Origin: Leptolyngbya sp. NIES-2104
GTDB taxonomy: Bacteria > Cyanobacteriota > Cyanobacteriia > Leptolyngbyales > Leptolyngbyaceae
DNA: 64,000 bases
Assembly: GCF_001485215.1 (NCBI RefSeq)
Contig: NZ_BBWW01000001.1
Coordinates: 3,906,001 to 3,970,000 of the forward strand
Direction of reading: 5' to 3'
A model generated the notes under the pieces. It was given only the letters and a program-made list of their open reading frames with translations, did not search any database and was not told the DNA's origin. Each line of letters opens with the position of its first letter. Within the stretch, counting starts at the first letter, position 1. The translations under genes and the position numbers were made by a program. Below, piece by piece: positions 1,783 through 39,794 of the stretch.

Positions 1783-3288
1783 TTATCGGATCGATCGCAA
1801 TAATTCCAAATGTTTACCCACAGGCGCGATCGTATTTGCCGCGATCATTCCACTCGCAGCCACCGCAGGTAATCCAATGCCTGGAAATGTCGAATCTCCA
1901 CAGCACAACAATCCTGAAATCGGTGTCATCGCACTGGGGAACAATCCATCGGTTGCGCGAATTGCTGCTCCATAAGTTCCTCGATATCGACGTAAAAATC
2001 TTTCGTGAGTGATGGGTGTTCCGACTAACGATAGTTCAGTTCTCGATCGAATATCCGGTATCACTCGCTCCAAAGCTTTCCACATGACCTCCGCCCGTTG
2101 TTGTTTTAGTTCCTCATAGTTCTCACATTGCTCCCAAACTTCATAAGGTTCATTGCCCGGTGTGTAGACATGAATGGCATGTTTTCCATCAGGTGCAAGG
2201 GATGGATCAAGAATGGATGGAATCGAGATCAGCACAACATTTTGAGGCGCACCAATGCCTAAGTTCCAATCATTGACCACAATGTGATGACACGCGATCG
2301 AGTCTAATCCCTGTGCATCAATGCCTAAGTGCAAGTGCATGAAACTCTCACAGGTCGGTGTTGCTTGTCGTGCTTGCTGAAATCGTTTCGGGAAACTATC
2401 GACTAACTTAAGCGTGTCCCAAATCGAAGCATTGGAAACCACATAGCGCGATCGCAGTTCTTCACCGTTTTGCAATCGCACCCCGATCGCTTTCTGATTT
2501 TCAACTAAAACCTTTTCTACGGGTGCTCTTAAGCGAACTTTACCACTATGCTTTTCAATGCCACGAACTAACGCATCGACGATCGCACCACTCCCACCCG
2601 CTGGATAGTCCAATTTCACATTCGGGCGATACCAATCGGCAAACATAAACGCCACTTCAGCGGCATTAGTGCTATCTGCTGGAAGTCCCGATAGTAAAAA
2701 GCACAATAGATCTAACCAATTGCGAATGAATGGATCAGTAATCACCTGATTCATTACAGGCGCGAATGCTCCAGTAAGCTTGGAAAACCCGATCGCATTT
2801 TGCACCATTGCAGGTAAGTACTGTCCAACGCTTAAAAGTGCTCCTAAGTCATAGCGCACCGCAGCGGGGGGAAGCGCGATCGCGGCTCTTGCTAACGGAC
2901 TCATTACTTCTTGCAATCGTTGCCATTCTGCAACCGCAGATTCTCCTCGAAGTTGCTGTAAGACTTCGCAGAACTGAGAAGCTCCGACTTGCGTATCGAA
3001 CGTTCCTTCTGGCAGACAACAGCCCCACGTTTCGTAATTTAGCCACGAGATATCTTCGTCGATCGCGTCTAAAACTTGCCGTAAGGGATTCGGAGAAGGA
3101 CTGTAAGACATTCCCGAATACAAGGAAGGACCCGAATCGAACGTATATCCGTTGCGCTTAAAACTATGGGCGGCTCCTCCAGCGATCGAATGACTCTCAC
3201 ACACGAGCACATTAAATCCATATTTCGCCAGAATTGCTGCACAACTCAAGCCACCGATTCCGCTACCAATCACAATGACATCAATCAT
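1783..3288 (-). CDS. FAD-dependent oxidoreductase, phytoene desaturase / carotenoid isomerase family
   Basis: The 501-residue protein opens with a Rossmann FAD-binding motif (IDVIVIGSGIGGLSCAA) followed by the ESHSIAGGAAHSF segment typical of CrtI/CRTISO proteins; the C-terminal ISGLLCCGDSTFPGIGLP is the second FAD contact of this family. Known members desaturate or isomerise carotenoids, or reduce retinol-like polyenes, at the membrane. I chose the ATG at 3288 rather than the upstream one at 3309 because AGGA lies about 9 nt before it and the FAD motif starts at once. It stands alone, with no other carotenoid gene nearby. Whether it is CrtH itself or a paralogue cannot be decided here. Confidence 0.75.
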   Translation of the reverse strand: MIDVIVIGSGIGGLSCAAILAKYGFNVLVCESHSIAGGAAHSFKRNGYTFDSGPSLYSGMSYSPSPNPLRQVLDAIDEDISWLNYETWGCCLPEGTFDTQVGASQFCEVLQQLRGESAVAEWQRLQEVMSPLARAAIALPPAAVRYDLGALLSVGQYLPAMVQNAIGFSKLTGAFAPVMNQVITDPFIRNWLDLLCFLLSGLPADSTNAAEVAFMFADWYRPNVKLDYPAGGSGAIVDALVRGIEKHSGKVRLRAPVEKVLVENQKAIGVRLQNGEELRSRYVVSNASIWDTLKLVDSFPKRFQQARQATPTCESFMHLHLGIDAQGLDSIACHHIVVNDWNLGIGAPQNVVLISIPSILDPSLAPDGKHAIHVYTPGNEPYEVWEQCENYEELKQQRAEVMWKALERVIPDIRSRTELSLVGTPITHERFLRRYRGTYGAAIRATDGLFPSAMTPISGLLCCGDSTFPGIGLPAVAASGMIAANTIAPVGKHLELLRSIR

Positions 3289-3309
3289 AGTGAAATTCCT
3301 ATCTATCAT

Positions 3310-3784
3310 CCCCGTATTATCACGAATCTACCTCTCGAAAATTAATCGTGCTGTTTTTAAAATCGCGTGTAGTATGCAAAATTAGGTGTGCTATTTCTTA
3401 CATTGAGGAGGCTTCCGTAGCGATACTTAGTTGAACGAATTACACCCGAAAAGATTGTAATTTCTGAGCAAAACAATTGGCTCAAACTGAGCAATTTAGA
3501 GTGATTTCTAGTCGAGATTCGCTCTGTTTTCAGTTGCTCGAAACGTTTAGGGGCAACCGTTTTAGAAATTTCTCTAACTTTCTTGAATTGAGTTGTTTAT
3601 TCTTGTAAAAACCTGGGCAGTCTAAGTTCGTTACACGAGAAATAAATCACGATCGATGCTCAATAGAGTAACAGATTTTTAGATAAATTTCCGTGTGATC
3701 ACCCAAACTTTTTCAACATCCCAAGACTGCACTTCTCGAATGCAGACACCTGTTACTCATTCACTTACAGCGGGCTAACAAACA
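3310..3784. other. 475-bp gap upstream of pilM
   Basis: No convincing ORF, RNA gene or long repeat was seen. It is AT-richer than its flanks and lies between divergent genes, so it should hold the promoters of the oxidoreductase (minus) and of the pilMNOQ operon (plus). I could not fix a -10/-35 pair with confidence. Confidence 0.4.
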
Positions 3785-4873
3785 GTGGTTAACGTCAAGA
3801 GTTTATTCTCAAAAAAATCAAGGGGGGTTGGCATTGAGTTAGCCGCCGATCGCCTAAACATTGTGCTCCTGCGGAAACAGGGGCAAGGCTTTCGACTCGG
3901 TTCTTATGCGACGGTTCCCGTTCCTGAAGGTGTGTTTCACGAAGGGCAAATCACCGATCCGCCCGCGATGGCAGAGATTATTCAATCTGCGTTAGCCGAA
4001 CACAAAATCAAAGTGAAACAGGTGGCAACGGCGGTTCCTGGTGGGCGCGATACGGTGACGCGGATTATTCCCGTTCCGGCAGAACTCGACGATCGAGAAC
4101 TGCGCGAAATGGTGCTCAATCAAGAAGCGGGCTTGTATCTGCCTTTTCCTCGTGAAGAAGCCGATGTTGATTACCAGAAGCTCGGTCTGTTTGTGGATGA
4201 AGACGGGATCGAAAAGGTGCAAGTTCTCCTAGTTGCGACCCGCAAAGAAGTGACAGATACCTATCTCAATACATTCCAGCAAGCGGGGTTACAGGTTGAT
4301 GTCCTGGAAGTCAGTAGTTTTTCGCTGATTCGGACGATTCGAGAACAGTTGAGACAGTTTGCCCCTCAAGAAGCGGTCGCACTGGTCGATATCGAGTTTG
4401 ACAATACCGAAATTTCGATCACGGTGGATGGTGTGCCTCAGTTTTCGCGAACTGTCCCGATCGGAACTTATCAAATTCAATCGGCGCTATCGAGAGCGAT
4501 GAATTTACCGCCCTCGCGCAATATTGATTTACTGCAAGGAATGACGATTCCGACCGGGGATTCTAACCGACCGGGTGGAAATCCAGGAGCGGCGGCGATG
4601 CTGCGAGTGTTAGGAGAACTGAGCGATGAACTGCGGCGATCGATTGATTTCTACCTGAACCAAGGCGAAAACCTCGAAGTCGCGCAGGTGATGTTAGCTG
4701 GACCCGGAGCCGCGATCGGGCAATTAGACGAATTTTTTACAACTCGATTGAGTTTGCCCTGTAGCTTGGTTGATCCGGTCACGGCTTTATCGCTCAACGG
4801 TGATGAAATTCCAGCGAACTTGCGCCCTGGTCTGGGTGTGGTACTCGGTTTAGGACTGCGGGAGGCGTGGTAA
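3785..4873 (+). CDS. pilM: Type IV pilus assembly protein PilM
   Basis: The 362-residue protein has the FtsA/actin-like fold of PilM: GIELAADRLNIVLLRK at the N-terminus (phosphate-1 region), ALVDIEFDNTEISI mid-protein (phosphate-2) and VMLAGPGAAIGQLDEFF near the C-terminus (adenosine site). PilM is a cytoplasmic ATP-binding protein that docks on the N-terminal tail of PilN and links the pilus motor to the inner-membrane platform. Translation starts at GTG 3785. It is first in pilMNOQ and its stop codon abuts the ATG of pilN. The length is normal for the family. Confidence 0.93.
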   Translation: MVNVKSLFSKKSRGVGIELAADRLNIVLLRKQGQGFRLGSYATVPVPEGVFHEGQITDPPAMAEIIQSALAEHKIKVKQVATAVPGGRDTVTRIIPVPAELDDRELREMVLNQEAGLYLPFPREEADVDYQKLGLFVDEDGIEKVQVLLVATRKEVTDTYLNTFQQAGLQVDVLEVSSFSLIRTIREQLRQFAPQEAVALVDIEFDNTEISITVDGVPQFSRTVPIGTYQIQSALSRAMNLPPSRNIDLLQGMTIPTGDSNRPGGNPGAAAMLRVLGELSDELRRSIDFYLNQGENLEVAQVMLAGPGAAIGQLDEFFTTRLSLPCSLVDPVTALSLNGDEIPANLRPGLGVVLGLGLREAW

Positions 4874-5734
4874 ATGTACAGTTTAGATGTCAATTTTCTC
4901 AACGATCGACCAGAGATCAAGCCCGATAAACGGCGCAGCAGTGGAGGACGCAAACCCTCGATTTCATCCGACGATCGTCGCCCGCTGTATCTTGGAGTTG
5001 CAGCGCTGGTCTTTTTTCCGACACTTGCGGCGGCGCTCTTGGGAATTCTCACCTTGCGAAACGGTGATTTAGAAAAGCAGAAAGCCGATTTAGAGATACA
5101 GCTTGGCAATTTAGAAACTGAGAAGAAAAATCTCTCGAAGATTCAGGAAGACGCGAAACAAGCGACCGCAGAAGCAGAGTCGCTGGCTTCCGTGTTTAAC
5201 CAGATCAAACCTTGGTCAGCAATGACTCAGGACATTCGCGATCGCTTGCCTTCGACGGTCCAGCTTGCCTCGATTGAGCAGAAAGCTGATCCGGCTGCTG
5301 CTGGAATCACTCCCGCAGCCTCGACGACTCCCGTGTCAGGACGCATCGAGATTAAAGGAACAGCGAATTCGTTTAATGATGTCAATGATTTTCTATTGAC
5401 GCTTCAGCAATCGAATTTTCTCAGAGCCGATCAAACCAAAGTCATCAGCGCGGAGTTGGGTGAGGAAAGAACGCTTCAGCTACCAGAATTTCCAGGCGTG
5501 AAGCGGGAAATGGGTGAGTTCAAACCTCCTCGCCTACCGCGACGAGTCTCGTTTGCGATCGCAACTGCGATTAATGATGTTCCGGCTTCGGAATTGATTC
5601 GGGAACTCGATCGTAAAGGGGCAGTGGGTCTTGTGACTCGGATCGAAGCCTTGAAAGAACGCGGTGTGATCTCGGAGTCGGCTCCGAAATCTCCGACCCC
5701 CGCAGCGAAACCAGACGGAGCGAAAAAACCATGA
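4874..5734 (+). CDS. pilN: Type IV pilus assembly protein PilN
   Basis: The 286-residue bitopic inner-membrane protein has a short cytoplasmic tail containing VNFLNDRP (residues 6-13), the equivalent of the INLLP motif that binds PilM. A membrane segment follows at about residues 36-60, then a coiled coil (~62-105), then a periplasmic ferredoxin-like domain. It forms the alignment subcomplex with PilO. The start is directly behind the pilM stop (0-bp gap) and its end overlaps pilO by 4 bases (ATGA), which indicates translational coupling. The C-terminal ~20 residues are Pro/Ala/Lys-rich. Confidence 0.9.
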   Translation: MYSLDVNFLNDRPEIKPDKRRSSGGRKPSISSDDRRPLYLGVAALVFFPTLAAALLGILTLRNGDLEKQKADLEIQLGNLETEKKNLSKIQEDAKQATAEAESLASVFNQIKPWSAMTQDIRDRLPSTVQLASIEQKADPAAAGITPAASTTPVSGRIEIKGTANSFNDVNDFLLTLQQSNFLRADQTKVISAELGEERTLQLPEFPGVKREMGEFKPPRLPRRVSFAIATAINDVPASELIRELDRKGAVGLVTRIEALKERGVISESAPKSPTPAAKPDGAKKP

Positions 5735-6609
5735 CGGCTGACTTTATTCCTGATTCGGAGTTTGAGAGTACTCCAAACTATCCCACAGCGTTTGGGGTCA
5801 CATTTACGCCAACCATTAGCGGAATTCTGCTGGGTCTGCTGGGTTTGCTCGGTGGCGGTGCGCTGATCTACTATCTGGTGATGCCTGCATTTGAAACGAA
5901 TCAAACCTTGAGCAAGTCTGTCGAAGAGAAAACGCAACAGCTTCAACAACAAGGCGCGATTCGTAAACAGATTCAGGATGCGAAGGATCAGTTAGAGAAA
6001 GCAAAACAGAAACGAGATCAGGTTTACAGCTTGTTTGCCAATGAGAAAACCTTGAATACGCTGATGTTTGATCTCAACCAATTGATCGAGCGGAACAATG
6101 CAGGGTTACTCGCTGCAAGAAATACAAAGCTAAATGCTTGTCCAGCGTATGTGCGGCAAATATTCGCGACTCCGGGCGGTGCTCAAGAGTTTCAAGATCA
6201 GTTTGGTCCGCTAGTGTCTGAGGCAAAGTTAAAACGCTTCAAGCCGGACGATAAAGGAGCCGCAGTGATCAACGATAGTTCGCTGGGTGCGCCAATTAAC
6301 AACAAGCTAAAGCGCCAAACGATCGATATCGAGATTCGCGGCAACTTTAACCAAACGCAGTCGATTTTTAGAACGATCGAGCGGCTTCAACCGCTGTTAC
6401 TGGTTCGCAATCTAGATGTCAAAGTCGTGGATCAAAAAGTAGCAGAAGGCTTGTACGAAATCCAGCCCGACGGCACGATCCGCTATTTAACCAACTGCCA
6501 ACCGGATAACCAAATCGCGGCGACCTTCCAGATGGATGCACTGTTGCCGTTGACCGATGTCGATCGACAAGCGGTACAAGCGGCTCAGCAATCCCCTGAG
6601 AAAAAATAG
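5731..6609 (+). CDS. pilO: Type IV pilus assembly protein PilO
   Basis: The 292-residue protein has a single membrane segment at about residues 28-50, a coiled coil (~52-95) and a periplasmic domain, the usual PilO plan. It pairs with PilN in the periplasm and connects the PilM platform to the PilQ secretin. It overlaps pilN by ATGA. No pilP follows, as is usual in cyanobacteria, so PilO probably contacts PilQ without that lipoprotein. A 190-bp gap with a dispersed inverted repeat separates it from pilQ. Confidence 0.9.
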   Translation: MTADFIPDSEFESTPNYPTAFGVTFTPTISGILLGLLGLLGGGALIYYLVMPAFETNQTLSKSVEEKTQQLQQQGAIRKQIQDAKDQLEKAKQKRDQVYSLFANEKTLNTLMFDLNQLIERNNAGLLAARNTKLNACPAYVRQIFATPGGAQEFQDQFGPLVSEAKLKRFKPDDKGAAVINDSSLGAPINNKLKRQTIDIEIRGNFNQTQSIFRTIERLQPLLLVRNLDVKVVDQKVAEGLYEIQPDGTIRYLTNCQPDNQIAATFQMDALLPLTDVDRQAVQAAQQSPEKK

Positions 6610-6652
6610 CGATCGCTGATGAACTTCTGCGCTGCGATTGCAAATCCGGGAA

Positions 6653-6738
6653 GCCCCCTAAATCCCCCACGAGTGGGGGACTTCAAACCAAAAGAGCTTT
6701 AACGCTCAAAGTCCCCCAGAATGGGGGATTTAGGGGGC
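6653..6738. repeat. Dispersed inverted repeat, CCCCCTAAATCCCCC family, copy 1
   Basis: The left arm GCCCCCTAAATCCCCCA...TGGGGGACTT (6653 on) is matched by its reverse complement ending at 6738 (GGGGGATTTAGGGGGC). Each arm is itself a small hairpin (CCCCCAnnnTGGGGG). Further copies are at 38525-38629 and, as a half copy, at 32357-32384. It sits between pilO and pilQ and may act as an RNA hairpin that lowers or tunes pilQ expression; that role is inferred. Confidence 0.8.
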
Positions 6739-6808
6739 GAAACCCACTTCCAACGCAGCGAAAAACCATCCATATAATCCCCAATTCCCCCTAAGAGGAG
6801 TGTCCCCC

Positions 6809-9256
6809 GTGAAAGAGCTTCGATCGATCACTATTGCAACTGCCGCGACGCTTGCCCTAGTCAGTCCTGCGTCTGCTAACCCAACCCAAGTCACCAATGT
6901 GCGCGTCAACCCGAATGGTGCTGGTTTTGATGTTGTGCTCGAAACCCAAGGCGGCAAAGCGCCTCAAGTGTTCAACGTCAATCGCGGCAATACGTGGAAT
7001 GCGTATGTGTTCAATGCCCAAATCAGTCAACCGTTCAATCAGAAAAATCCGGCTCCTGGAATTGCTCAGATTTCAGTGATTCCGTCGGGTGCGAATGGTG
7101 TGCAAGTGACGGTCGTGGGAACGAATGCAGCCCCGATCGGTCAAATTGCTTCCCGGAATGCTCAAGGTGTGATCTTCAATGTTGCGGGTGCAGGTGGCGG
7201 AAGTGCTCCGAACACTGCCCCTCCGATCGTTACGGCTCAAGCACAGTCGGCTCCTTTGCCAACGGCTCCCGTCGCTCAATCGATGCCAAATTCGACCACT
7301 CCGATCGCTCCGTTTGTTCCGAGTGCTCAGGTGCCGAATCAAGGACAGCCAGTCGTTCCAGTTGCCCCAGCTCCACCGTTGCTCAGAAGAGCCGTTGCGC
7401 CTCCAGTCGGTGATCAAGCGATTTCGCAGATTGATACCTCAGCAACAACGATCGATCTCGGCACAAATGAGCGGATTCCTCGGTTGGTGTTGCGTGATGC
7501 TCCAGTACGAGAAGTGTTGTCACTTTTGGCACGTGCAGCAAAATTGAACCTAGCTTATGTCGAGCCGCCTAGTAACGGACAGCAGGGACAGCAAGGTGCT
7601 AAACCGAATGGTCCTACAATCTCTTTAGACATTGAGAATGAATCTGTCCAGGAGGTATTTAACCACGTCTTGCGAGTCACTTGCGTAACGCCAACGTTTG
7701 CAGTGGTAAATGGTGGCAGTACGGGTCAATGTGCGTCTTTGGAAGCAAATCGAGTTGGGCGAACTCTGTTTGTTGGACCTCGCCTCCCTGACGATGCGAG
7801 AAATTTCATCACTCGAACCATCCGTCTCAATCAGGTTTCTGCGTCTGATGCTGCTGGTTTTCTAACAACTCAAGGTGCTGAAACCCAGCAAGCTGGTACA
7901 AGGAGAACAGTTGTCAGCTTGAGACGATCCGATAACCAAGTGCGAGAGGAATTAGTTGAAGAACCTGCAATCATTTCTCTACGGGCAACAGAGGGGACGG
8001 CTCCGCTATTGCTCAGAGGAGTAGCGATAACCGCTGATCCTCGTCTCAACACAGTTACTCTTGTTGGATCACCCCGTAGGATTGAGATTGCAACTCGCCT
8101 GCTCACTCAACTTGATGCTCGTCGTCGTCAAGTTGCAATCAATGTAAAAATTGTTGATGTGAATTTGCTGAGAACGGATGACTTTAACACCAGTTTCTCT
8201 TTTGGCATTGGCAACAACTTCTTTAACGTCGATCGAGGTGCAGCAGTTTTCAACTTCGGTCAGTACAGACCACCGACTAGTGCTGAATCGACCGATAGTT
8301 TAGCTGGTCGTCCTATCATCAATAACCCCTACACGGATTCTAACAGCTTCATTAATGTCAATGGCGCTGGGTTCCCAGTTCCTAATACGTCTCCAGGAGA
8401 GCGAGTCATTGTTGATGGACGAGTGTTAACGAACATTCCAAATGGATCTGCAACATTCTTTGGTCGATCGGTTCAGACGAACAATCCTCTGCAACCGGGT
8501 ATTACCGACATCACTCCAGCGACTCCTAATGTGACAACGTTCACCACTGATCCAACCACTGGAAGGGTAACAGGAGCCTTCTCACCTGGAACGGTTGGAG
8601 CACTTACTGCTGCCTTGCCGACTTTGTTCCAATTCCCAACGCGCTTTTTGGCACGATTGCAGTCGCAAGTTACGAGCGGAAATGCAAAAATTCTGACTGA
8701 TCCAACTGTTATTGTCCAGGAGGGTCAAAAAGCAAATGTCAACCTGACTCAAGATGTAGTCACGAACACTAAAATCACCCGTACAGATACGGCGGGTGTG
8801 AGTCGTGAAACTGTTGAGCTAGAAAGACAGCAAGCAGGATTGAAGCTCGATATTGTACTGGATCGAATTGATGATAATGGCTTTGTCTCTCTTAGTATCA
8901 ATCCCTCTGTGACGGCTCCGGTTAGCACCGTAGACACAGGTGCAGGTCGAGTCGTGCTGTTATCAAGACGGGAGATTCAATCTGGTTTAATTCGGTTACG
9001 CGATGGACAAACATTGATTTTGTCTGGAATCATTCAGGAAAGCGATCGTTCTTCTGTAAGAAAAGTTCCAATTTTGGGCGACCTTCCTCTGTTAGGTTCG
9101 CTTTTCAGAAGCACGAGTCGCGATAATCAGCGTCAAGAAGTCATCGTGATGCTGACCCCTCAAATCCTGGATGATAGTGATCAATCCAACTTTGGTTACG
9201 GTTATGTTCCCGGTCGCGAAGTGCGTCAGTTCTTGCAGCAGCAAGAAAACCGCTAA
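6809..9256 (+). CDS. pilQ: Type IV pilus secretin PilQ
   Basis: The 815-residue precursor of the outer-membrane pilus secretin. A signal peptide ends at VSPASA (residue ~24). An AMIN domain (~25-110) follows, then a Pro/Ala-rich linker, N0/STN (~215-290), N1-type repeats, and the secretin barrel domain whose signature VPILGDLPLLGSLFRS is near the C-terminus. I place the start at GTG 6809 because AAGAGGAG lies 8 nt upstream; a GTG at 6800 overlaps that ribosome-binding site. It forms the gated channel for the pilus fibre. Its 3' end (9190-9211) recurs as a 22-bp scar at 10302. Confidence 0.93.
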   Translation: MKELRSITIATAATLALVSPASANPTQVTNVRVNPNGAGFDVVLETQGGKAPQVFNVNRGNTWNAYVFNAQISQPFNQKNPAPGIAQISVIPSGANGVQVTVVGTNAAPIGQIASRNAQGVIFNVAGAGGGSAPNTAPPIVTAQAQSAPLPTAPVAQSMPNSTTPIAPFVPSAQVPNQGQPVVPVAPAPPLLRRAVAPPVGDQAISQIDTSATTIDLGTNERIPRLVLRDAPVREVLSLLARAAKLNLAYVEPPSNGQQGQQGAKPNGPTISLDIENESVQEVFNHVLRVTCVTPTFAVVNGGSTGQCASLEANRVGRTLFVGPRLPDDARNFITRTIRLNQVSASDAAGFLTTQGAETQQAGTRRTVVSLRRSDNQVREELVEEPAIISLRATEGTAPLLLRGVAITADPRLNTVTLVGSPRRIEIATRLLTQLDARRRQVAINVKIVDVNLLRTDDFNTSFSFGIGNNFFNVDRGAAVFNFGQYRPPTSAESTDSLAGRPIINNPYTDSNSFINVNGAGFPVPNTSPGERVIVDGRVLTNIPNGSATFFGRSVQTNNPLQPGITDITPATPNVTTFTTDPTTGRVTGAFSPGTVGALTAALPTLFQFPTRFLARLQSQVTSGNAKILTDPTVIVQEGQKANVNLTQDVVTNTKITRTDTAGVSRETVELERQQAGLKLDIVLDRIDDNGFVSLSINPSVTAPVSTVDTGAGRVVLLSRREIQSGLIRLRDGQTLILSGIIQESDRSSVRKVPILGDLPLLGSLFRSTSRDNQRQEVIVMLTPQILDDSDQSNFGYGYVPGREVRQFLQQQENR

Positions 9257-9281
9257 CGCAAACCCACTCTAGATCCACAGC

Positions 9282-9313
9282 GCCAGAGTTCCCCTGCGAA
9301 TTCTGGCTTTTTT
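9282..9313 (+). terminator. Intrinsic terminator of pilMNOQ
   Basis: A 9-bp stem (GCCAGAGTT with AATTCTGGC, one G-U pair) and an 8-nt loop are followed by six T. It lies 26 bp behind the pilQ stop and its T-run touches the stop codon of the convergent vapC. Confidence 0.8.
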
Positions 9314-9755
9314 ATTGCACAGTTTGAGGATGCACAACCATAATCGGAGCGGTCACTGTAAAATCATTTGGATTCAAGGTGAGTAGATGATCGATCCCAT
9401 GCGCCAGCATCACAGCGACCAGGCGAATATCATGTGCTCTCTTGCCTTGAATGTTGTTTTCTGTGATTAACCGAAACCAGAGCGGAAAAATTTCTGGTCG
9501 CTCTTCAAGTAAGGCAAATCCAGTCATCAACTCATTAATTCTATTTTGTGTTTGATCAACACTCCAACCTAATCCGTTCACACTGGTTGGACGAGTTGCA
9601 ACCACCCAAAACTCAATAAGAACTTGTGGAGTCAGAACACATTGATTTCCCTGCAATCCCAAGCGGGATATTGCATTAATGGTGAGGGAGTGCTGAGCAT
9701 CAATCGGATTGGAAAATCGTAAAACGATGTTTGTATCTAATAGGTATCGGGTCAT
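9312..9755 (-). CDS. PIN-domain toxin (VapC family), copy 1
   Basis: The 147-residue PIN-domain protein starts MTRYLLDTN with the first acidic residue at D7. Further acidic residues lie at IEFWVVATRP, GKRAHDIRLVAVM and LTLNPNDF, as expected for a metal-dependent RNase of the VapC type. It overlaps the antitoxin gene upstream by ATGA. It is clearly paralogous along its full length to the toxin at 10327-10770 (shared IEFWVVATRP, HDIRLVAVMLA and LLTLNP segments), so the two arose by local duplication. Its stop codon abuts the pilQ terminator. Confidence 0.85.
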   Translation of the reverse strand: MTRYLLDTNIVLRFSNPIDAQHSLTINAISRLGLQGNQCVLTPQVLIEFWVVATRPTSVNGLGWSVDQTQNRINELMTGFALLEERPEIFPLWFRLITENNIQGKRAHDIRLVAVMLAHGIDHLLTLNPNDFTVTAPIMVVHPQTVQ

Positions 9756-10018
9756 TGATCGCTGATACTTCCCCGATCGCCGTAAATACTTTCTCGATCG
9801 AAAGCCTCATCCGGTAGACTCACGCCAGTTTTAGGAAGGTGTGCAGTCCATTCTTGGAAGCTTTTCACCCATTCTTCTGGAGTCACAGCATTCCAAGATT
9901 GCAGCAACGCTTGCGGTTTCTCAGCCTGATGCTTAATCGAAGCAATGAAACCTTCAACTTGCTTGAGTTGGTCTTCATTCAATCGATCAATTTCTTGCTT
10001 TACTTTATCTCGCAGCAT
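9752..10018 (-). CDS. VapB-type antitoxin, copy 1
   Basis: The 88-residue partner of the toxin at 9312. The N-terminal half (MLRDKVKQEIDRLNEDQLKQVEGFI) matches the antitoxin at 10767 (MLKEKVKQEIDKLNEDQLRRVEIFI), and both end in a PKTG..LPDEA.DRE segment that would wrap the toxin. The ATG at 10018 fits the shared N-terminus. It lies 24 bp behind the small antitoxin-like gene at 10043. Confidence 0.8.
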   Translation of the reverse strand: MLRDKVKQEIDRLNEDQLKQVEGFIASIKHQAEKPQALLQSWNAVTPEEWVKSFQEWTAHLPKTGVSLPDEAFDRESIYGDRGSISDQ

Positions 10019-10042
10019 AATTGCAATGAGTTCTTTCTTCTA

Positions 10043-10249
10043 TCATATAGGCTCTTCTTCGTCTAATTGAATCACTCCGATTAGGCTTTGAGTCCAGGGA
10101 TCAAGACTGGTAAAAGAATTCGTACTTGGAGTTGAATCGCTAGACACCAGCGTTTCTTGTTGAATTGAGCTTAATAATGACTGCACCAACCGCCAGCGAT
10201 CGCGAATCGGCAATTGCAATGCCTGATTCTGAAGTTCCTGCCAAGTCAC
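10043..10249 (-). CDS. Small antitoxin-like protein without an adjacent own toxin
   Basis: The 68-residue protein begins MTWQELQNQALQLP followed by RDRWRLVQSLLSSI, the type of N-terminal helix found in many small cyanobacterial addiction-module proteins. The start is GTG 10249 with GGAGG 8 nt before it. It sits between two complete vapBC pairs on the same strand and has no toxin of its own next to it. It could be a solitary antitoxin left after toxin loss or an extra regulator of the array. Confidence 0.6.
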   Translation of the reverse strand: MTWQELQNQALQLPIRDRWRLVQSLLSSIQQETLVSSDSTPSTNSFTSLDPWTQSLIGVIQLDEEEPI

Positions 10250-32456: not shown

Positions 32457-34628
32457 TTATTTCACAAACAGCATTTCTTGATAAGTTGGCAGGGGCCACA
32501 AATCGTCTGCAATCTCACCTTCGAGAGCATCAGCATACTCGCGCACTTTATCCATCAAAGGACGAAGCGTTTGAGCACAGTACTGCATATGATCTTCAGG
32601 AGTCTCAAAGTCATGCTTGCTTAAAGCTGCACTGAGTTTACTCACGTTATCGGTCATCGATTGCGTCAGAGTTGCGACTTTTTCAGCGGTTTCTTTGTCG
32701 AGCGATAGTCCGATGTTGCTCAAATTCGCGATCGCACTTCCCAAATCGGACAGATACCGCACCGCTGCTGGATAGATGATCGTCTTCGCCATGCTGATCA
32801 CCAGTTTCGCCTCAACCGCGATCGAGTTAATGTACTGTTCTGCATAGACATCGAAGCGGCTTTCGAGTTCAACTGGAGTCAGAACACCGAGTCGATAGAA
32901 CAGTTCTTCGATCTCTGGCTTTTTCAACACAGGAAGTGCATCCGCAGTTGTCCGCAGATTCGGTAAACCGCGCTCTTCGACTGCCATCTTATGCCATTCT
33001 TCAGAGTATCCATCCCCTCCAAAGATCACGGCACTGTGATTGTCCATCACTTCCTTGAGGACAGTAAACACAGCCGCGCTCAATTCAGTTCCTTTCGATA
33101 GTTCAGCTTCGAGCTTGTCGCTCACCCAGGTCAGCGAATCAGCCAAAATGGTGTTCATTGCAACGAGTGGACCTGAAACCGATTGTCCAGAACCGACAGC
33201 GCGGAACTCGAAGCGGTTTCCGGTAAAAGCAAACGGAGAAGTCCGATTGCGATCGCCCGGATCTTTCACAAACACAGGCAGTGTATCGACACCAAGATCC
33301 ATGAATCCGCTATGGGTAGAATCCTTCACTTCACCTTTTGCAATTTGATCGAACACTTCTTCTAGCTGAGTTCCGAGGTAAACCGAAATGATTGCAGGCG
33401 GCGCTTCATTTGCACCTAAACGGTGATCATTGCTTGCGGTTGCAACCACTGCGCGTAACAGTGATCCGTAGCTGTGCACACCCCGAATCACAGCACCACA
33501 GAACAGTAGAAACTGTAGGTTCTTGTGCGGGGTATCACCGGGATCAAGTAAATTCCCTTGGGTCGGATTACCAACCGACCAGTTGACGTGCTTTCCAGAA
33601 CCATTCACCCCGGCAAACGGTTTCTCATGCAGCAAGCACATAAAACCATGTTTTTTCGCAGTTGTTTTCAGAATGGTCATGATCAACTGTTGGTGATCAC
33701 TTGCAACGTTCGCGGCTTCAAAGAATGGAGCAATTTCAAACTGTCCGGGTGCGACTTCGTTATGTCTCGTTTTTGCTGGAATACCAAGCCGATAAAGCTT
33801 TTCTTCTACGTCCTGCATAAAGACTTGGACGCGCTCTGGAATCGCTCCAAAATAGTGATCATCGAATTGCTGACCTTTTGCGGGAGACTTACCAAACAAG
33901 GTGCGACCTGTTAACAGTAAATCTGGGCGATTGTGGGCAAAGTGAGCATCCACTAAGAAATACTCTTGTTCGGCTCCACAGCTTGAGTTAACGGGCGCAA
34001 TGTCGGTATAGCCCAGCAGTTTAAGAGCGCGAGTTGCGGCTTTGTTCATTGCCGAAATCGATCGCAATAATGGCGTTTTCTTATCAAGTGCTTCGCCCGT
34101 CCATGACACAAACACAGTCGGAATGCACAGCGTCACACCGTTATCGGTTTCCATCACGTACGCTGGACTCGTCACATCCCACGCGGTGTAACCACGAGCC
34201 GCATTCGTCGCTCTAAGTCCACCATTCGGAAATGATGATCCATCGGGTTCACCTTGGACTAGAACTTTTCCGGTGAACTCAGAAATCACAGAACCATCAC
34301 TTTGAACCGAGATGAAACCATCGTGCTTTTCAGCGGTTGCATTCGTCAAAGGATAGAATACGTGAGCATAGTACAGTGCGCCTTTCGAGATTGCCCAATC
34401 CTTCATTGCAGCGGCGACAATTCCAGCAACGGACACATCGAGCTTTCCACCTGTTTTGATCGTGTTTTGCACCGATTTGAACACATCTTTCGGCAAACAA
34501 GCCTGCATCTTGCTCAAACTAAACACATCGGTTGCCCAGATTGCTTCTAAGCGCGGCGGAACCTTCGACGGTAACGGAGTCCGATCGGTCACTTGTGAAA
34601 TGGCTTGGACTCTCAATTCATGACTCAT
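32457..34628 (-). CDS. glnN: Glutamine synthetase type III
   Basis: The 723-residue enzyme makes glutamine from glutamate, ammonium and ATP as the entry of the GS-GOGAT cycle. Length and the motifs SSCGAEQEYFLVD, LTGRTLFGKSPAKGQQFDDHYFG, RHNEVAPGQFEIAP, VNGSGKHVNWS and RNRTSPFAFTGNRFEFRAVGS place it in GSIII (GlnN), about 250 residues longer than GSI. In cyanobacteria GlnN typically rises during nitrogen starvation under NtcA. It is the second gene behind a PPK2 gene (18-bp gap) with TGAGGA before its ATG. Confidence 0.93.
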   Translation of the reverse strand: MSHELRVQAISQVTDRTPLPSKVPPRLEAIWATDVFSLSKMQACLPKDVFKSVQNTIKTGGKLDVSVAGIVAAAMKDWAISKGALYYAHVFYPLTNATAEKHDGFISVQSDGSVISEFTGKVLVQGEPDGSSFPNGGLRATNAARGYTAWDVTSPAYVMETDNGVTLCIPTVFVSWTGEALDKKTPLLRSISAMNKAATRALKLLGYTDIAPVNSSCGAEQEYFLVDAHFAHNRPDLLLTGRTLFGKSPAKGQQFDDHYFGAIPERVQVFMQDVEEKLYRLGIPAKTRHNEVAPGQFEIAPFFEAANVASDHQQLIMTILKTTAKKHGFMCLLHEKPFAGVNGSGKHVNWSVGNPTQGNLLDPGDTPHKNLQFLLFCGAVIRGVHSYGSLLRAVVATASNDHRLGANEAPPAIISVYLGTQLEEVFDQIAKGEVKDSTHSGFMDLGVDTLPVFVKDPGDRNRTSPFAFTGNRFEFRAVGSGQSVSGPLVAMNTILADSLTWVSDKLEAELSKGTELSAAVFTVLKEVMDNHSAVIFGGDGYSEEWHKMAVEERGLPNLRTTADALPVLKKPEIEELFYRLGVLTPVELESRFDVYAEQYINSIAVEAKLVISMAKTIIYPAAVRYLSDLGSAIANLSNIGLSLDKETAEKVATLTQSMTDNVSKLSAALSKHDFETPEDHMQYCAQTLRPLMDKVREYADALEGEIADDLWPLPTYQEMLFVK

Positions 34629-34646: not shown

Positions 34647-35579
34647 TTAGTAGGTCTGGGGTACAAAAAACTGCTCATTCCGAGGCGGACGAACATAATC
34701 TTCTGGAGCAATCCGGCGCGGGGGTAACTCCATTGCTTCGGGAGTCATATCGGTGTAAGGCACTTTGCTCAAAATGTGGCTGATACAGTTCAATCGAGCA
34801 CGTTTTTTATCATTCGCTTCAACGGTGAACCACGGTGCTTCAGGAATGTTAGTGCAAGCAAACATAGCATCTTTTGCTCTAGAAAATTCCACCCAGCGAT
34901 CGCGAGATTCTAAATCCATTGGGCTGAGCTTCCATCGCCGGGATGGATCAGTCGTGCGAGATTGAAATCGCCGCTCTTGTTCGTCATCACTCACCGAGAA
35001 CCAGTACTTTAGCAGCATAATCCCCGATCGCACTAACATCCGCTCGAATTCTGGACAAGAGTGCATGAACTCCTGGTACTGAGCATCGCTACAGAAGCCC
35101 ATTACATGTTCGACTCCAGCGCGGTTGTACCAACTGCGATCGAACAAAACAATCTCACCCGCACCCGGTAAATGCTCCACATAGCGCTGGAAGTACCACT
35201 GTGTTTTCTCACGATCCGAGGGCGTTCCGAGAGCAACCACTCGACAACCACGGGGATTGAGCGGTTCAGCAATGCGCTTGATCGTGCCTCCTTTTCCAGC
35301 AGCATCACGACCTTCAAACAGAATCACCACACGATATCCAGTGTGCTTGATCCAGTACTGCATCTTCACCAGTTCAGCTTGTAATCGCCCTAGCTCGATT
35401 TCGTAAGCTTTAGAGTTCAGCTTCTTCGGCTCAGGCGGTTCAAGCTCAACCTTTAAAGTCTGGTTGGGTAAGTGAATTTGATGTTTTTTGTGTTTCTTAT
35501 GTTTTTTATGGGGTTTCTCCTCGAATAACTGCTCTCTCTCTTGAACGGCAGTTGAGCCATTCGTAAGTGGGCGTTCCAT
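34647..35579 (-). CDS. ppk2: Polyphosphate kinase 2 (PPK2) family protein
   Basis: A 310-residue protein with Walker A GRDAAGKGG (residues 90-98), a lid region and Walker B LFDRSWYNR (~145-153), the class I PPK2 pattern. PPK2 enzymes phosphorylate nucleoside diphosphates from polyphosphate or the reverse. An extra N-terminus (~1-45) contains HKKHKKHKKH, which could bind polyphosphate or metal. The ATG at 35579 has AGGAG about 10 nt upstream. It is the first gene of an operon with GSIII, which suggests polyphosphate-derived ATP or ADP balance during glutamine synthesis; that link is inferred. Confidence 0.9.
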   Translation of the reverse strand: MERPLTNGSTAVQEREQLFEEKPHKKHKKHKKHQIHLPNQTLKVELEPPEPKKLNSKAYEIELGRLQAELVKMQYWIKHTGYRVVILFEGRDAAGKGGTIKRIAEPLNPRGCRVVALGTPSDREKTQWYFQRYVEHLPGAGEIVLFDRSWYNRAGVEHVMGFCSDAQYQEFMHSCPEFERMLVRSGIMLLKYWFSVSDDEQERRFQSRTTDPSRRWKLSPMDLESRDRWVEFSRAKDAMFACTNIPEAPWFTVEANDKKRARLNCISHILSKVPYTDMTPEAMELPPRRIAPEDYVRPPRNEQFFVPQTY

Positions 35580-35850: not shown

Positions 35851-36100
35851 TCCTCAAAATCTCAACCTTCAATGTTTCAGTACTATCGAAGGTTCTTCTA
35901 CTCGACTCATAGTAGAAATAGAATAATGAGTTGTTTGTATCGCAAATTACCGTTCTTCAGGAAAAACGAAAAAGTTTTCATAAGTTCATTGTTTCAGCAC
36001 AGTTTGAAACACTTGTCACTAAAGACAAATTTAATAATTCTGCAAAAGCTTTGCTAGGCGGTAGTTTTAGTTAGCAACAAAAGAAAATATTTTTGATCTT

Positions 36101-36141
36101 GTAGCAAGTAATACCAAGTAATCTTGCAGTCTGTCTAAAGT
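36101..36141 (+). promoter_or_regulatory. NtcA-activated promoter of the APC-PII-YnfA operon
   Basis: GTA (36101-36103), eight bases, TAC (36112-36114), 21 bases, then TAAAGT (36136-36141). This is the class II NtcA promoter consensus (GTAN8TAC, ~22 nt, TAN3T) with every fixed base present. Transcription would start near 36148, ahead of ATG 36177 and behind the alternative GTG at 36147, which supports the ATG as the true start. Confidence 0.82.
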
Positions 36142-36176
36142 GTTCTGTGCAACCTCAGAGGGATGTAACAGAAAAA

Positions 36177-37745
36177 ATGTCTAATTCGAACGGCAGCGAA
36201 CTAAAGCCAACACTCGGTTTAGTCGGGATTACGATTAATGCAATGGCGCTGATCGCTCCTGGAGCTTTTTTATGGACGACGTATCAGCTTCAAGCTCCTC
36301 CGGATTCTGCCAAAAATATGTGGGCAGCGATCGCGCTTGCAACTTGTATCGCTTTATTGACCGCGAGTTGTTATGCAACGCTGTCAAAAGCTTACCCTGA
36401 AGCGGGCGCAGGCAGTTCTTACTATTATGCTGAAGCTGCAATTCTCGCTAAAGAAGCACACAAACACTTCCGATTAGCGCGGCTGGCAAAGTTCGTCACA
36501 GGATGGGCAGCACACCTCTACTACTGGGTGTATCCGGGCATCATGGTGAGCTTTATGGGAACTTTAGTTGTTTACATTGGACAATTGTTTAATCCAGATT
36601 TTGGCTCAGACTGGCTCACAAAAGCGCTGATTTGTTTTGTGTTTGCTGGCATTATTGGTGGGATTGCGCTGATGGGTGTGAGTGGCTCAACGTTGGTCAA
36701 CATCGTTATCAACATTGTGCAGATTGCATCTCTGACTTTTCTAGGGTTGCTGATGATTGTTTATCGGTTGGGACATCCCAATGTGAACTATGAACATGCA
36801 AATGCACTGAGTGTGGTTTTGCCACATGACTTGAGTGGTTTGATTTATCAAGCTACGATCGCGATTCTACTATTAGTCGGGTTTGAATCCGCGACTGCAA
36901 TGGCAGGTGAAGCGGTGAATCCGCAGCGTGATATTCCGAGAGGAGTGATTTTATCGTTATTTATTCAGGCTTGTATCTGCTACTTTTTTGAGTATTTTGC
37001 AGCAAACTTCTTTATCGGGGATCAATACACTGCAACCGTCGATGGTAAAACGGTGACTGGATTTGCAGCCGCGCTGTCGTCTGGAGCACCGATCGGTGAT
37101 ATCGCGAAAATATTAGGAGATACATTGCTGTTTGGAAATGGCTTTTTGCTGCAACTGATCATGGCAAGTACTGTGGTGATGGCATTGCTTGGAACAGGAC
37201 TTTCTTCACTGTCTACGGGGGTGCGAATTAGTTTTGCAATGGGAGCCGATCGAGAATTGCCCGCAGTGTTTGGATTCCTTCACGGTCGCTACAATACGCC
37301 TTATCTTGGAATTTTCTTTCTGTCTGGACTGTCTGCGCTGATTGGTGCTTATGCTGTCCAAAGTGTGGATAATGTCACGATCGTGACTCTCGTTTCTAAC
37401 ATTGGCACATTCATGCTGTACGGCATTACTTGTGGAGTCACATTGATTGCAACACTAGAGCATTTACTCGATGGTGAACGCAATCCGATTAAGACGATTG
37501 TGATTCCGTTACTAGGTTTGGTGCTGAATTTAGCAATGGTCTGTGGGATTTTCTATTACGGTTTAACCGGAAGCGGAAATGCACAGGTTAATTCAATCAC
37601 GGCAATTGGAATCGCGATCGCGTTTTTCGTGGCTGGATTTGCTTACCTAGTTGGCGATAGTTTGTTCAAAGGTAAACCGCTCTTCTTGCCGCCCGACATG
37701 CAGCAACGATTGCGCGATCGTGTCAGTGCTGCAAAATCTCGCTAA
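36177..37745 (+). CDS. APC-superfamily amino-acid/polyamine permease
   Basis: A 522-residue integral membrane protein with about 12 helices. GLVGITINAMALIAPGAFLW in helix 1 and FESATAMAGEAVNPQRDIPRG around helix 6 are APC hallmarks. It should import an amino acid or another nitrogen compound; the substrate is unknown. The ATG at 36177 is preceded by AGAGGGA. It heads an operon with a PII paralogue (24 bp downstream) and ynfA, behind an NtcA promoter, and faces the ppk2-glnN operon. Confidence 0.85.
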   Translation: MSNSNGSELKPTLGLVGITINAMALIAPGAFLWTTYQLQAPPDSAKNMWAAIALATCIALLTASCYATLSKAYPEAGAGSSYYYAEAAILAKEAHKHFRLARLAKFVTGWAAHLYYWVYPGIMVSFMGTLVVYIGQLFNPDFGSDWLTKALICFVFAGIIGGIALMGVSGSTLVNIVINIVQIASLTFLGLLMIVYRLGHPNVNYEHANALSVVLPHDLSGLIYQATIAILLLVGFESATAMAGEAVNPQRDIPRGVILSLFIQACICYFFEYFAANFFIGDQYTATVDGKTVTGFAAALSSGAPIGDIAKILGDTLLFGNGFLLQLIMASTVVMALLGTGLSSLSTGVRISFAMGADRELPAVFGFLHGRYNTPYLGIFFLSGLSALIGAYAVQSVDNVTIVTLVSNIGTFMLYGITCGVTLIATLEHLLDGERNPIKTIVIPLLGLVLNLAMVCGIFYYGLTGSGNAQVNSITAIGIAIAFFVAGFAYLVGDSLFKGKPLFLPPDMQQRLRDRVSAAKSR

Positions 37746-37769
37746 TCTCACTTGTAAACGAGGCGACTT

Positions 37770-38156
37770 ATGAATTTAATTCTTGCTGTGATTCAACCTG
37801 GAAAGCTCGATGCCGTGAAAGAGGCACTGGTAAAGTTGGGAGTTCAGGGTATGACGGTGACAGGTGCGAAAGGTTTTGGACGGCAGAAAGGGCGACCTTT
37901 GGCATTTCTTGGATTGCTGGATATGGAAGGTAAGCCGTTCACCATTGATTTTATTCCTAAAGTCAGGCTCGAAATTGTCGTGAATGATGACATCACCGAT
38001 CTGGTGGTAGATGCGATCGTCAATACTGCCAGAACTGGCACGATCGGCGATGGTAAATTGTTTGTGATTCCGGTGAGTCGCGCTGTTCGGATTCGTACAG
38101 GCGAAGAGAACGAAGTTGCTCTGACCGTGGAAGAACCCACAGTCGTGAAAAAATAA
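37770..38156 (+). CDS. PII-family signal protein with an extended, atypical T-loop
   Basis: A 128-residue PII protein. Conserved are GFGRQKG (K40), IGDGK (equivalent of K90) and RIRTGEE (equivalents of R101/R103), so ATP/ADP binding should persist. The T-loop is about six residues longer than in GlnB ([20 protein letters not shown]) and lacks both the uridylylated Tyr51 and the phosphorylated Ser49; the usual basic residue at position 85 is Thr. It sits directly behind an APC permease, like GlnK behind AmtB. I infer a regulator of that permease. Confidence 0.88.
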
Positions 38157-38479
38157 TGCTTCAATCTCTTCTGCTCTTTGTGTTAGCGGGTCTGTGTGAA
38201 ATTGGTGGCGGCTATCTCTTCTGGCTGTGGTTGCGTGAAGGGAAAAGTGTCTGGCTTGCCGTTGTAGGGGTGATGATTCTGGCGGTTTATGGTGTGGTGC
38301 CGACATTGCAGCCTGCGAATTTTGGACGCGCTTATGCGGCGTACGGCGGCGTTTTTATTGTGCTGTCGATTTTATGGGGTTGGGGAGTCGATCGCGTTCA
38401 ACCAGATAAATTCGACTGGCTCGGTGGCTGGATTGCGCTGCTCGGTGTGTTGGTGATCATGTACGCGCCTCGGCATTAA
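38156..38479 (+). CDS. ynfA: YnfA-family small membrane protein (UPF0060)
   Basis: A 107-residue protein with four membrane helices ([27 protein letters not shown] at the start, [10 protein letters not shown] at the end). YnfA proteins resemble small multidrug-resistance exporters. The ATG overlaps the PII stop (TAATG), so it is translationally coupled and probably part of the same NtcA-controlled operon. Its role there is not known; export of a toxic nitrogen compound is one guess. Confidence 0.85.
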
Positions 38480-38816: not shown

Positions 38817-39335
38817 ATGGTTAGGGAAGTATTGACTCAGCGCCGTCAAGTAATTGGAATGTTCTTAACCCGTGAAGAGGCAGGACAATCACTCGATCGA
38901 CTAGTTTTAGCTGGATTTCCGATCGCGCAAACTTTCCTGATTGGTCGCGACTCTAACCAATCTACTGTGCTGACCGAATTCTCTGCTTCTGACTTTGGAG
39001 CGATCACAGGGACAGCGACCGGATTGAAGAAAGGCTTTGTGCTGGGAAATCTGATTGGCGGAACCTCTGGATTGCTGCTCGGTGCTAGTTTGTTAGCGCT
39101 GCCAGGAGTTGGAGCAGTGTTGATGTCTTCTGCGATCGCGTTTACCTTACTAAGCGGTGGTATCGGTACGGCGGCAGGCGGTATTATTGGCGCAATGATT
39201 GGTTTAGGACTAACCACTGAGCAAGCCAAACAATACAGTCAGTATGTTGCAAAAGGCTATATTCTGCTAATGATTGAAGGGACGACACACGAGATCGATC
39301 GTGCTCAACAACTCTTGAAGAAATCAATTGTTTGA
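38817..39335 (+). CDS. Gly/Ala-rich membrane-associated protein, GSP17M-like N-terminus
   Basis: A 172-residue protein. Residues 1-60 (RQVIGMFLTREEAGQSLDRLVLAGFP) resemble the small alpha/beta domain of general stress protein 17M-like proteins. Residues ~62-140 are a Gly/Ala-rich double hydrophobic hairpin (glycine-zipper-like: LGNLIGGTSGLLLGASLLA, GGIGTAAGGIIGAMIGLGL). The C-terminal 30 residues return to an alpha/beta pattern (GYILLMIEGTTHEIDRAQQLL). This plan is common in cyanobacterial stress-related proteins of unknown function. Confidence 0.6.
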   Translation: MVREVLTQRRQVIGMFLTREEAGQSLDRLVLAGFPIAQTFLIGRDSNQSTVLTEFSASDFGAITGTATGLKKGFVLGNLIGGTSGLLLGASLLALPGVGAVLMSSAIAFTLLSGGIGTAAGGIIGAMIGLGLTTEQAKQYSQYVAKGYILLMIEGTTHEIDRAQQLLKKSIV

Positions 39336-39443: not shown

Positions 39444-39794
39444 ATGGTTGCCGAATACGATCGAGAACGCGAAATTTGGGAACGGCTAGAGCAAGGACGC
39501 AGAACAAAAGCGGCACAGGGTGGCTATGTCGGTTACGGATCGCCCGCGTTTGGACAGCGATCGCTCAATGGTGAATTGGTTGAAAATCCCGATGAGCAAC
39601 AGATTATTGAACTCATCCGCCGACATCATAAATCGGGCAAATCTCTGCAACAAGTCGCGGATTGGCTGAATCAAAACGGCTACCTGACAAAGCGCGGTCA
39701 ACAATGGCAGCGAATTTCAGTCAAGCGCGTTTTGGATCGCCTGTACGGACGGACACCGAGAATTTCTGGAATTGAACACTCAGACGAATCTTAA
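39444..39794 (+). CDS. Stand-alone recombinase-domain protein
   Basis: A 116-residue protein matching the middle Recombinase domain of large serine recombinases (GYVGYGSPAFGQRS, NPDEQQIIELIRRHHKSGKSLQQVADWLNQNGYLTKRGQQWQ). It lacks the catalytic resolvase domain and the zinc-ribbon/coiled-coil end, so it cannot recombine DNA. Small complete proteins of this type are found in cyanobacteria and may act as DNA-binding factors; a gene remnant is the alternative. Confidence 0.65.
   Translation: MVAEYDREREIWERLEQGRRTKAAQGGYVGYGSPAFGQRSLNGELVENPDEQQIIELIRRHHKSGKSLQQVADWLNQNGYLTKRGQQWQRISVKRVLDRLYGRTPRISGIEHSDES

Follow-up and report, generated by a model that had tools for sequence, protein, structure and literature searches.

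Among systems in which a PII-type regulator accompanies a transporter, the sequestration of GlnK by AmtB is known, and in SbtA-SbtB a cyanobacterial transporter gene is followed by the gene for a dedicated PII-type protein. KimA, which belongs to the APC transporters, carries a cytosolic nucleotide-binding regulatory domain, and APC transporters are not known for being trimers. Excerpts of a review (PMC10710835) name Amt, Nrt, Urt, and SbtA as the transporters controlled by PII, suggest trimers as a requirement, and describe SbtB as a PII-like protein serving a bicarbonate transporter; in the available sections of another study (PMC6603209), Synechocystis PII acts on Amt1, NrtABCD, and UrtABCDE, controlling nitrogen uptake. 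Of two further papers, each represented by partial text, one lists PII beside an ammonium transporter and APC permeases under distant locus tags (PMC9608346), and the other gives KimA and the PII-type protein DarA separate roles (PMC7857571). In the part of the literature that our search covered, we saw neither an APC-PII pair nor an APC-PII fusion.

The locus described here lies in a 64-kb window (the whole stretch of DNA that was analyzed) and resembles each of these systems in part. As in GlnK-AmtB, a PII protein with an intact ATP/2-oxoglutarate site is encoded beside, and predicted to be expressed with, a putative nitrogen transporter, a parallel that excerpts of PMC10710835 also show. 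Here, however, the transporter has the APC/LeuT fold and is not an Amt channel, the PII lacks the Tyr51 and Ser49 sites and has a longer T-loop, and the transporter gene comes first. The placing of a dedicated PII-type gene after a cyanobacterial transporter gene is that of SbtA-SbtB, but Pfam assigns the PII here to the classical family, and its operon has a predicted NtcA-type control. With KimA and other APC transporters the permease has its fold in common; whereas PDB titles name c-di-AMP for KimA, the regulatory partner or domain here is a PII.

The permease gene (522 amino acids; positions 36177 to 37745 on the plus strand, with its ATG at 36177) is assigned by Pfam AA_permease_2, an AlphaFold model, and a PDB fold match. 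The gene for an atypical PII protein (128 amino acids; 37770 to 38156, plus strand), recognized by Pfam P-II, PDB PII sequences, and ligand residues, begins after a gap of 24 nt from the permease stop, and the ATG of ynfA (38156 to 38479, plus strand; a UPF0060, SMR-like membrane protein by Pfam and NCBIfam) has 1 nt in common with the PII stop, an arrangement that agrees with the preliminary description of this DNA. All three proteins score above the curated Pfam cutoffs, as AA_permease_2, P-II, and UPF0060/YnfA. Downstream lies a conserved neighbor, the gene for a YflT-like protein of 172 amino acids (38817 to 39335, plus strand; Pfam YflT below the cutoff, E 3e-4). Divergent from the operon, on the minus strand, are the genes for polyphosphate kinase 2 (PPK2; 34647 to 35579; Pfam PPK2 and NCBIfam TIGR03707 above the cutoff) and a GlnN-like type III glutamine synthetase (GSIII; 32457 to 34628; Pfam GSIII_N, Gln-synt_C-ter, and Gln-synt_C). 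Near the operon, at 39444 to 39794, a 116-amino-acid open frame matches the Pfam Recombinase domain and is possibly the remnant of a mobile element.

Ahead of the permease stands a perfect NtcA-type box, GTAGCAAGTAATAC (GTA-N8-TAC; 36101 to 36114, plus strand), with the −10-like hexamer TAAAGT 21 nt 3′ of it (36136 to 36141, plus strand); both were read directly, agree with the preliminary description, and match the sequence pattern of an NtcA class II promoter (GTAN8TAC, about 22 nt, TAN3T). In the portion of PMC3898017 that treats them, canonical NtcA-activated promoters have the box centered near −41.5 and a TAN3T −10 element, a rule that predicts a transcription start near 36149. A motif scan located a second perfect GTAN8TAC box with a −10 element, facing PPK2-GSIII (35937 to 35950, minus strand). 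GTAN8TAC occurs seven times in the window, and only two occurrences are followed by TAN3T 20 to 24 nt downstream: that at 36101 (+), which points at the permease, and that at 35950 (−), which points at PPK2-GSIII, one intergenic stretch holding both. Among 20,000 random first-order sequences of 400 bp with the composition of this stretch, 6.3% contained the box alone and 0.46% the box plus −10; when this is extrapolated by hand to the two strands of 64 kb, the model leads one to expect about 1.5 sites with box plus −10. The number of such sites is unremarkable, but their place and conservation are not.

Conservation was assessed in the 24 loci, one of them the window, for which upstream sequence is available, against 130 other genes of at least 150 amino acids from the same loci, 39 of them from the window, with genes starting less than 1 kb from the permease start left out. 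A perfect box lies within 350 bp upstream of the permease in 21 of the 24 loci versus 22 of the 130 control genes (Fisher p 3e-11), and a perfect box together with a TA-hexamer 21 to 22 nt after it in 15 of the 24 versus none of the controls (p 5e-15), although kinship among the loci, some of them near-identical (such as L039 and L040), makes all p values for the box overstate independence. The strict TAN3T at 20 to 24 nt is confined to two loci, the window and L066 (0/130 controls; p 0.02). Where a TA-hexamer is present, its spacing from the box is 22 nt in 12 of the 15 loci, the window's 21 nt being one shorter; the combination is absent from 9 of the 24, and three (L053, L054, and L070) have no perfect box within 350 bp upstream of the permease. 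Phormidesmis priestleyi ULC007 carries both the gene pair and the box; Pseudanabaena biceps PCC 7429 carries the pair, with no perfect box in the 350 bp upstream. Six loci in which GSIII is upstream show a perfect box farther from the permease, at a distance comparable to that of the window's second box (L038, −268; L041, −233; L044, −272; L047, −179; L050, −357; and L062, −195 from a permease fragment); in L044 this distant box is the sole perfect one and may serve the opposite gene, the near site being one base off. The box, for which the preliminary description had asked for conservation in related genomes, is kept across cyanobacterial families. We reject a chance occurrence on the basis of this conservation relative to the controls and of the two boxes sharing one intergenic stretch.

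By its score of 67.2 bits against the APC Pfam profile (cutoff, 27) and by its LeuT-type fold, the permease belongs to the APC superfamily, and its Pfam matches are to AA_permease_2 and AA_permease only, which sets it apart from the Amt partner of GlnK-AmtB. The AlphaFold model (mean pLDDT 73.6, pTM 0.80) has its best PDB match in the bacterial CAT homologue 6f34 (Z 36.3, rmsd 3.0 over 416 residues), with further matches to CAT1 (Z 35.9) and KimA (Z 33.4). Identity is 11 to 20% in the top matches. Among solved structures, cationic amino acid transporters and ApcT come closest in fold, but an identity of 14 to 20% does not fix the substrate, which would be a nitrogen compound, most likely an amino acid or amine.

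The private PII is a classical PII by Pfam (P-II, PF00543; 99.4 bits against a curated cutoff of 25) and matches PDB PII sequences to 1e-34. We compared 21 orthologues with 14 canonical cyanobacterial PIIs, excluding the interrupted genes of L049 and L057. All 21 keep the same 12 ligand-site residues, T29, G35, G37, Q39, G41, K58, E62, G87, G89, K90, R101, and R103, of which Q39, K58, G87, K90, R101, and R103 belong to the ATP and 2-oxoglutarate site; position 86 is divided between I (8 orthologues) and V (13 orthologues), and G84 is altered in 3. The T-loop (17 residues, from alignments; 37893 to 37943, plus strand) is 6 residues longer than the canonical one, the insertion giving a conserved hydrophobic stretch, (L/M)AFLGL. 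Aligned across this insertion, S49 is replaced by K, Q, or R and Y51 by F in 21 of 21 orthologues; elsewhere, F11 gives way to small residues and E85 to T (17 orthologues) or K (4 orthologues). Tyr51 is the uridylylation site and Ser49 the phosphorylation site of the GlnB/GlnK T-loop, and a PII with neither falls outside the GlnB/GlnK subtype. In the relevant part of PMC6603209, the R9L variant of Synechocystis PII does not bind Amt1, NAGK, or Nrt subunits; unlike that organism's one general PII for several transporters, the protein here is a second, private PII, with R9 changed to Q in every one of the 21 orthologues. Because the ligand site is kept while R9, S49, and Y51 are changed, the private PII is expected to respond to the usual ligands but to have given up the canonical partners and covalent control, and it shows clearly how dedication of a PII may come about, with its ligand site kept and its partner-binding and modification residues lost. 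A recent duplication of the cell's own PII is not supported: in the tree the 21 orthologues come together (88/75, weak) apart from the 14 canonical cyanobacterial PIIs (99/89), with the fused Nitrospirota PIIs, described below, on a very long branch.

With each species represented by one genome, a scan gave 35 loci; once the window is added, 23 cyanobacterial loci can be read past the permease (L052, L055, L070, and L051, which shares its genome with L067, were left out because the contig ends). This PII is the next gene after the permease in 22 of the 23, so that the adjacency for which the preliminary description proposed a search proves conserved across cyanobacterial families; in the one exception, L062, the permease is fragmented and the PII absent. 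Among the 22, the L049 PII gene has a stop at codon 3, both genes of L057 (a MAG at 2x coverage) are broken across frames, and the L047 permease frame has an early stop as read; the gap between the two genes reaches 276 nt in some loci. Order-wide, the permease is matched at E 1e-40 in 8 of 42 genomes and the PII at E 1e-36 in 6, exactly the 6 whose permease is full-length. Of the two others with a permease match, G623 has a broken permease and no PII, and G603, a genome that is 69% complete, has a fragment of 116 residues where a contig ends. For G631, where PII and permease are on separate contigs that end 101 nt past the PII and 66 nt past the permease, we reject a PII without permease, since both contigs end near the genes and a split locus is likely. 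Across the phylum, the permease is found at E 1e-60 in 2 of 386 genomes, and the same two carry the PII at 81 to 100% identity, the other listed matches at E 1e-30 reaching at most 57%; around the genome of L048 the figure is 2 of 195 in its order, that genome counted, and none of these counts is independent, as the loci are related and the collections overlap (the whole genomes are partly the same). The permease-PII system is rare and patchy. We reject carriage on plasmids, as 72,556 plasmid records gave no match at E 1e-40.

The gene ynfA comes after the PII gene in 16 of 22 loci and is a frequent but dispensable neighbor, while the YflT-like gene lies downstream and codirectional in 17 of 22 and is placed or oriented differently in L053, L054, and L066. 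Glutamine synthetase III is upstream and divergent in six relatives and PPK2 in five.

In 3 of 198 Nitrospirota genomes (E 1e-60; the collection includes the MAG in which the fusion was first found), permease and PII form one open frame of 618 to 639 amino acids. The other two fusions are 76% and 73% identical to the first and have no internal stop, and we reject an assembly artifact because all three genomes have the fusion. Pfam places AA_permease at 33 to 497 and P-II at 513 to 618 of the first fusion, whose AlphaFold model (pTM 0.72) shows, immediately behind the last membrane helix, strands and helices that alternate as in a PII; given the usual APC topology, the PII part is presumably on the cytosolic side. 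By eye, no ribosome-binding site can be made out for the fused PII and one can for the next PII, a further PII following the fusion directly in all three genomes (its start is unclear in one); in two of the three an SMR-like gene, recalling ynfA, stands just before the fusion. Because permease and PII share one frame, the fusion argues for a direct link between them, more strongly than the evidence of the preliminary description, and the PII probably controls the transporter directly. The T-loops of the fused PIIs are short in contrast to the lengthened cyanobacterial T-loop, so that docking would not be identical in the two forms. As a single polypeptide, the fusion also lends itself to structural work. 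Its surroundings include, by reading, a KUP-like potassium transporter gene convergent to it in L110 and L111 and, in L110, an Amt-like gene some 2 kb upstream.

Gene order, box, conservation, co-occurrence, fusion, and residue pattern are observed here, and from them we infer NtcA binding, substrate, direction of transport, docking, and inhibition. Under nitrogen shortage, 2-oxoglutarate would rise and NtcA would turn on permease-PII-ynfA and, through the second box, the divergent PPK2-glutamine synthetase III; the permease, with its APC/LeuT fold, would take up a nitrogen compound, while the private PII would use the classical PII site to sense ATP/ADP and 2-oxoglutarate. Once nitrogen returned and 2-oxoglutarate fell, the unusual T-loop would let the PII dock on the permease from the cytosolic side, and transport would stop. 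The predicted induction by NtcA is the half of this mechanism that the sequence supports well; the proposed shutoff by PII is supported by linkage, fusion, and residue pattern. On balance we think it probable that a dedicated PII gates an NtcA-induced nitrogen importer, which would make this a starvation uptake operon with a built-in brake. For the wider proposition, we see the case as evenly poised: that PII control reaches the APC/LeuT-fold superfamily, a private or built-in PII directly switching a secondary transporter, with no need of a trimer, by docking unlike the plugging of the AmtB pore and with T-loops that differ between cyanobacterial and fused forms. If true, it would add a very large transporter superfamily to PII control and put the trimer rule to the test.

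The same genes could be read in other ways. The PII might merely share the operon and act on another partner, such as glutamine synthetase III, which is divergent next door, or in mixed trimers with canonical PII, which the three PII-domain genes of the genome make possible; we consider this unlikely, since the PII keeps with the permease where the available DNA shows no GSIII (for example, L042, L048, and L053) and permease and PII are fused in Nitrospirota. That fusion, the joint presence and loss of the two genes, and a T-loop conserved in its own way also weigh against plain coregulation, in which an NtcA promoter would hold nitrogen-stress genes together with no contact between their products. 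The shared promoter and the intergenic gaps of up to 276 nt in some loci would suit such an arrangement, to which we assign a slightly smaller chance still.

The least probable of these readings, and one that we hold to be improbable outright, makes the permease a transceptor that recruits PII to the membrane and signals external nitrogen instead of being inhibited. GlnK-AmtB sequestration offers a parallel, and L063 has a kinase and a phosphatase beside the permease; no downstream signaling target is visible, however, and the BBP2 porin gene that adjoins the permease in L058 and L061, and from reading also in L092 and L093, suggests transport.

Relatives of the permease in Bacteroidota and Chloroflexi are 36 to 50% identical; their available flanks contain no PII, nor do the whole genomes of L063 and L069 (G389 and G391). 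In L063, Amt, PP2C, a kinase, and glutamine synthetase surround the permease relative (3062 to 9691; Pfam), and in L058 a BBP2 porin, a kinase, and glutamine synthetase do so (4986 to 10220; Pfam); L065 has similar neighbors, by reading only (1837 to 8648). As a speculation, a kinase/phosphatase switch may replace PII in other phyla. These ammonium-assimilation neighbors support a nitrogen substrate for the permease as the probable one, without naming it.
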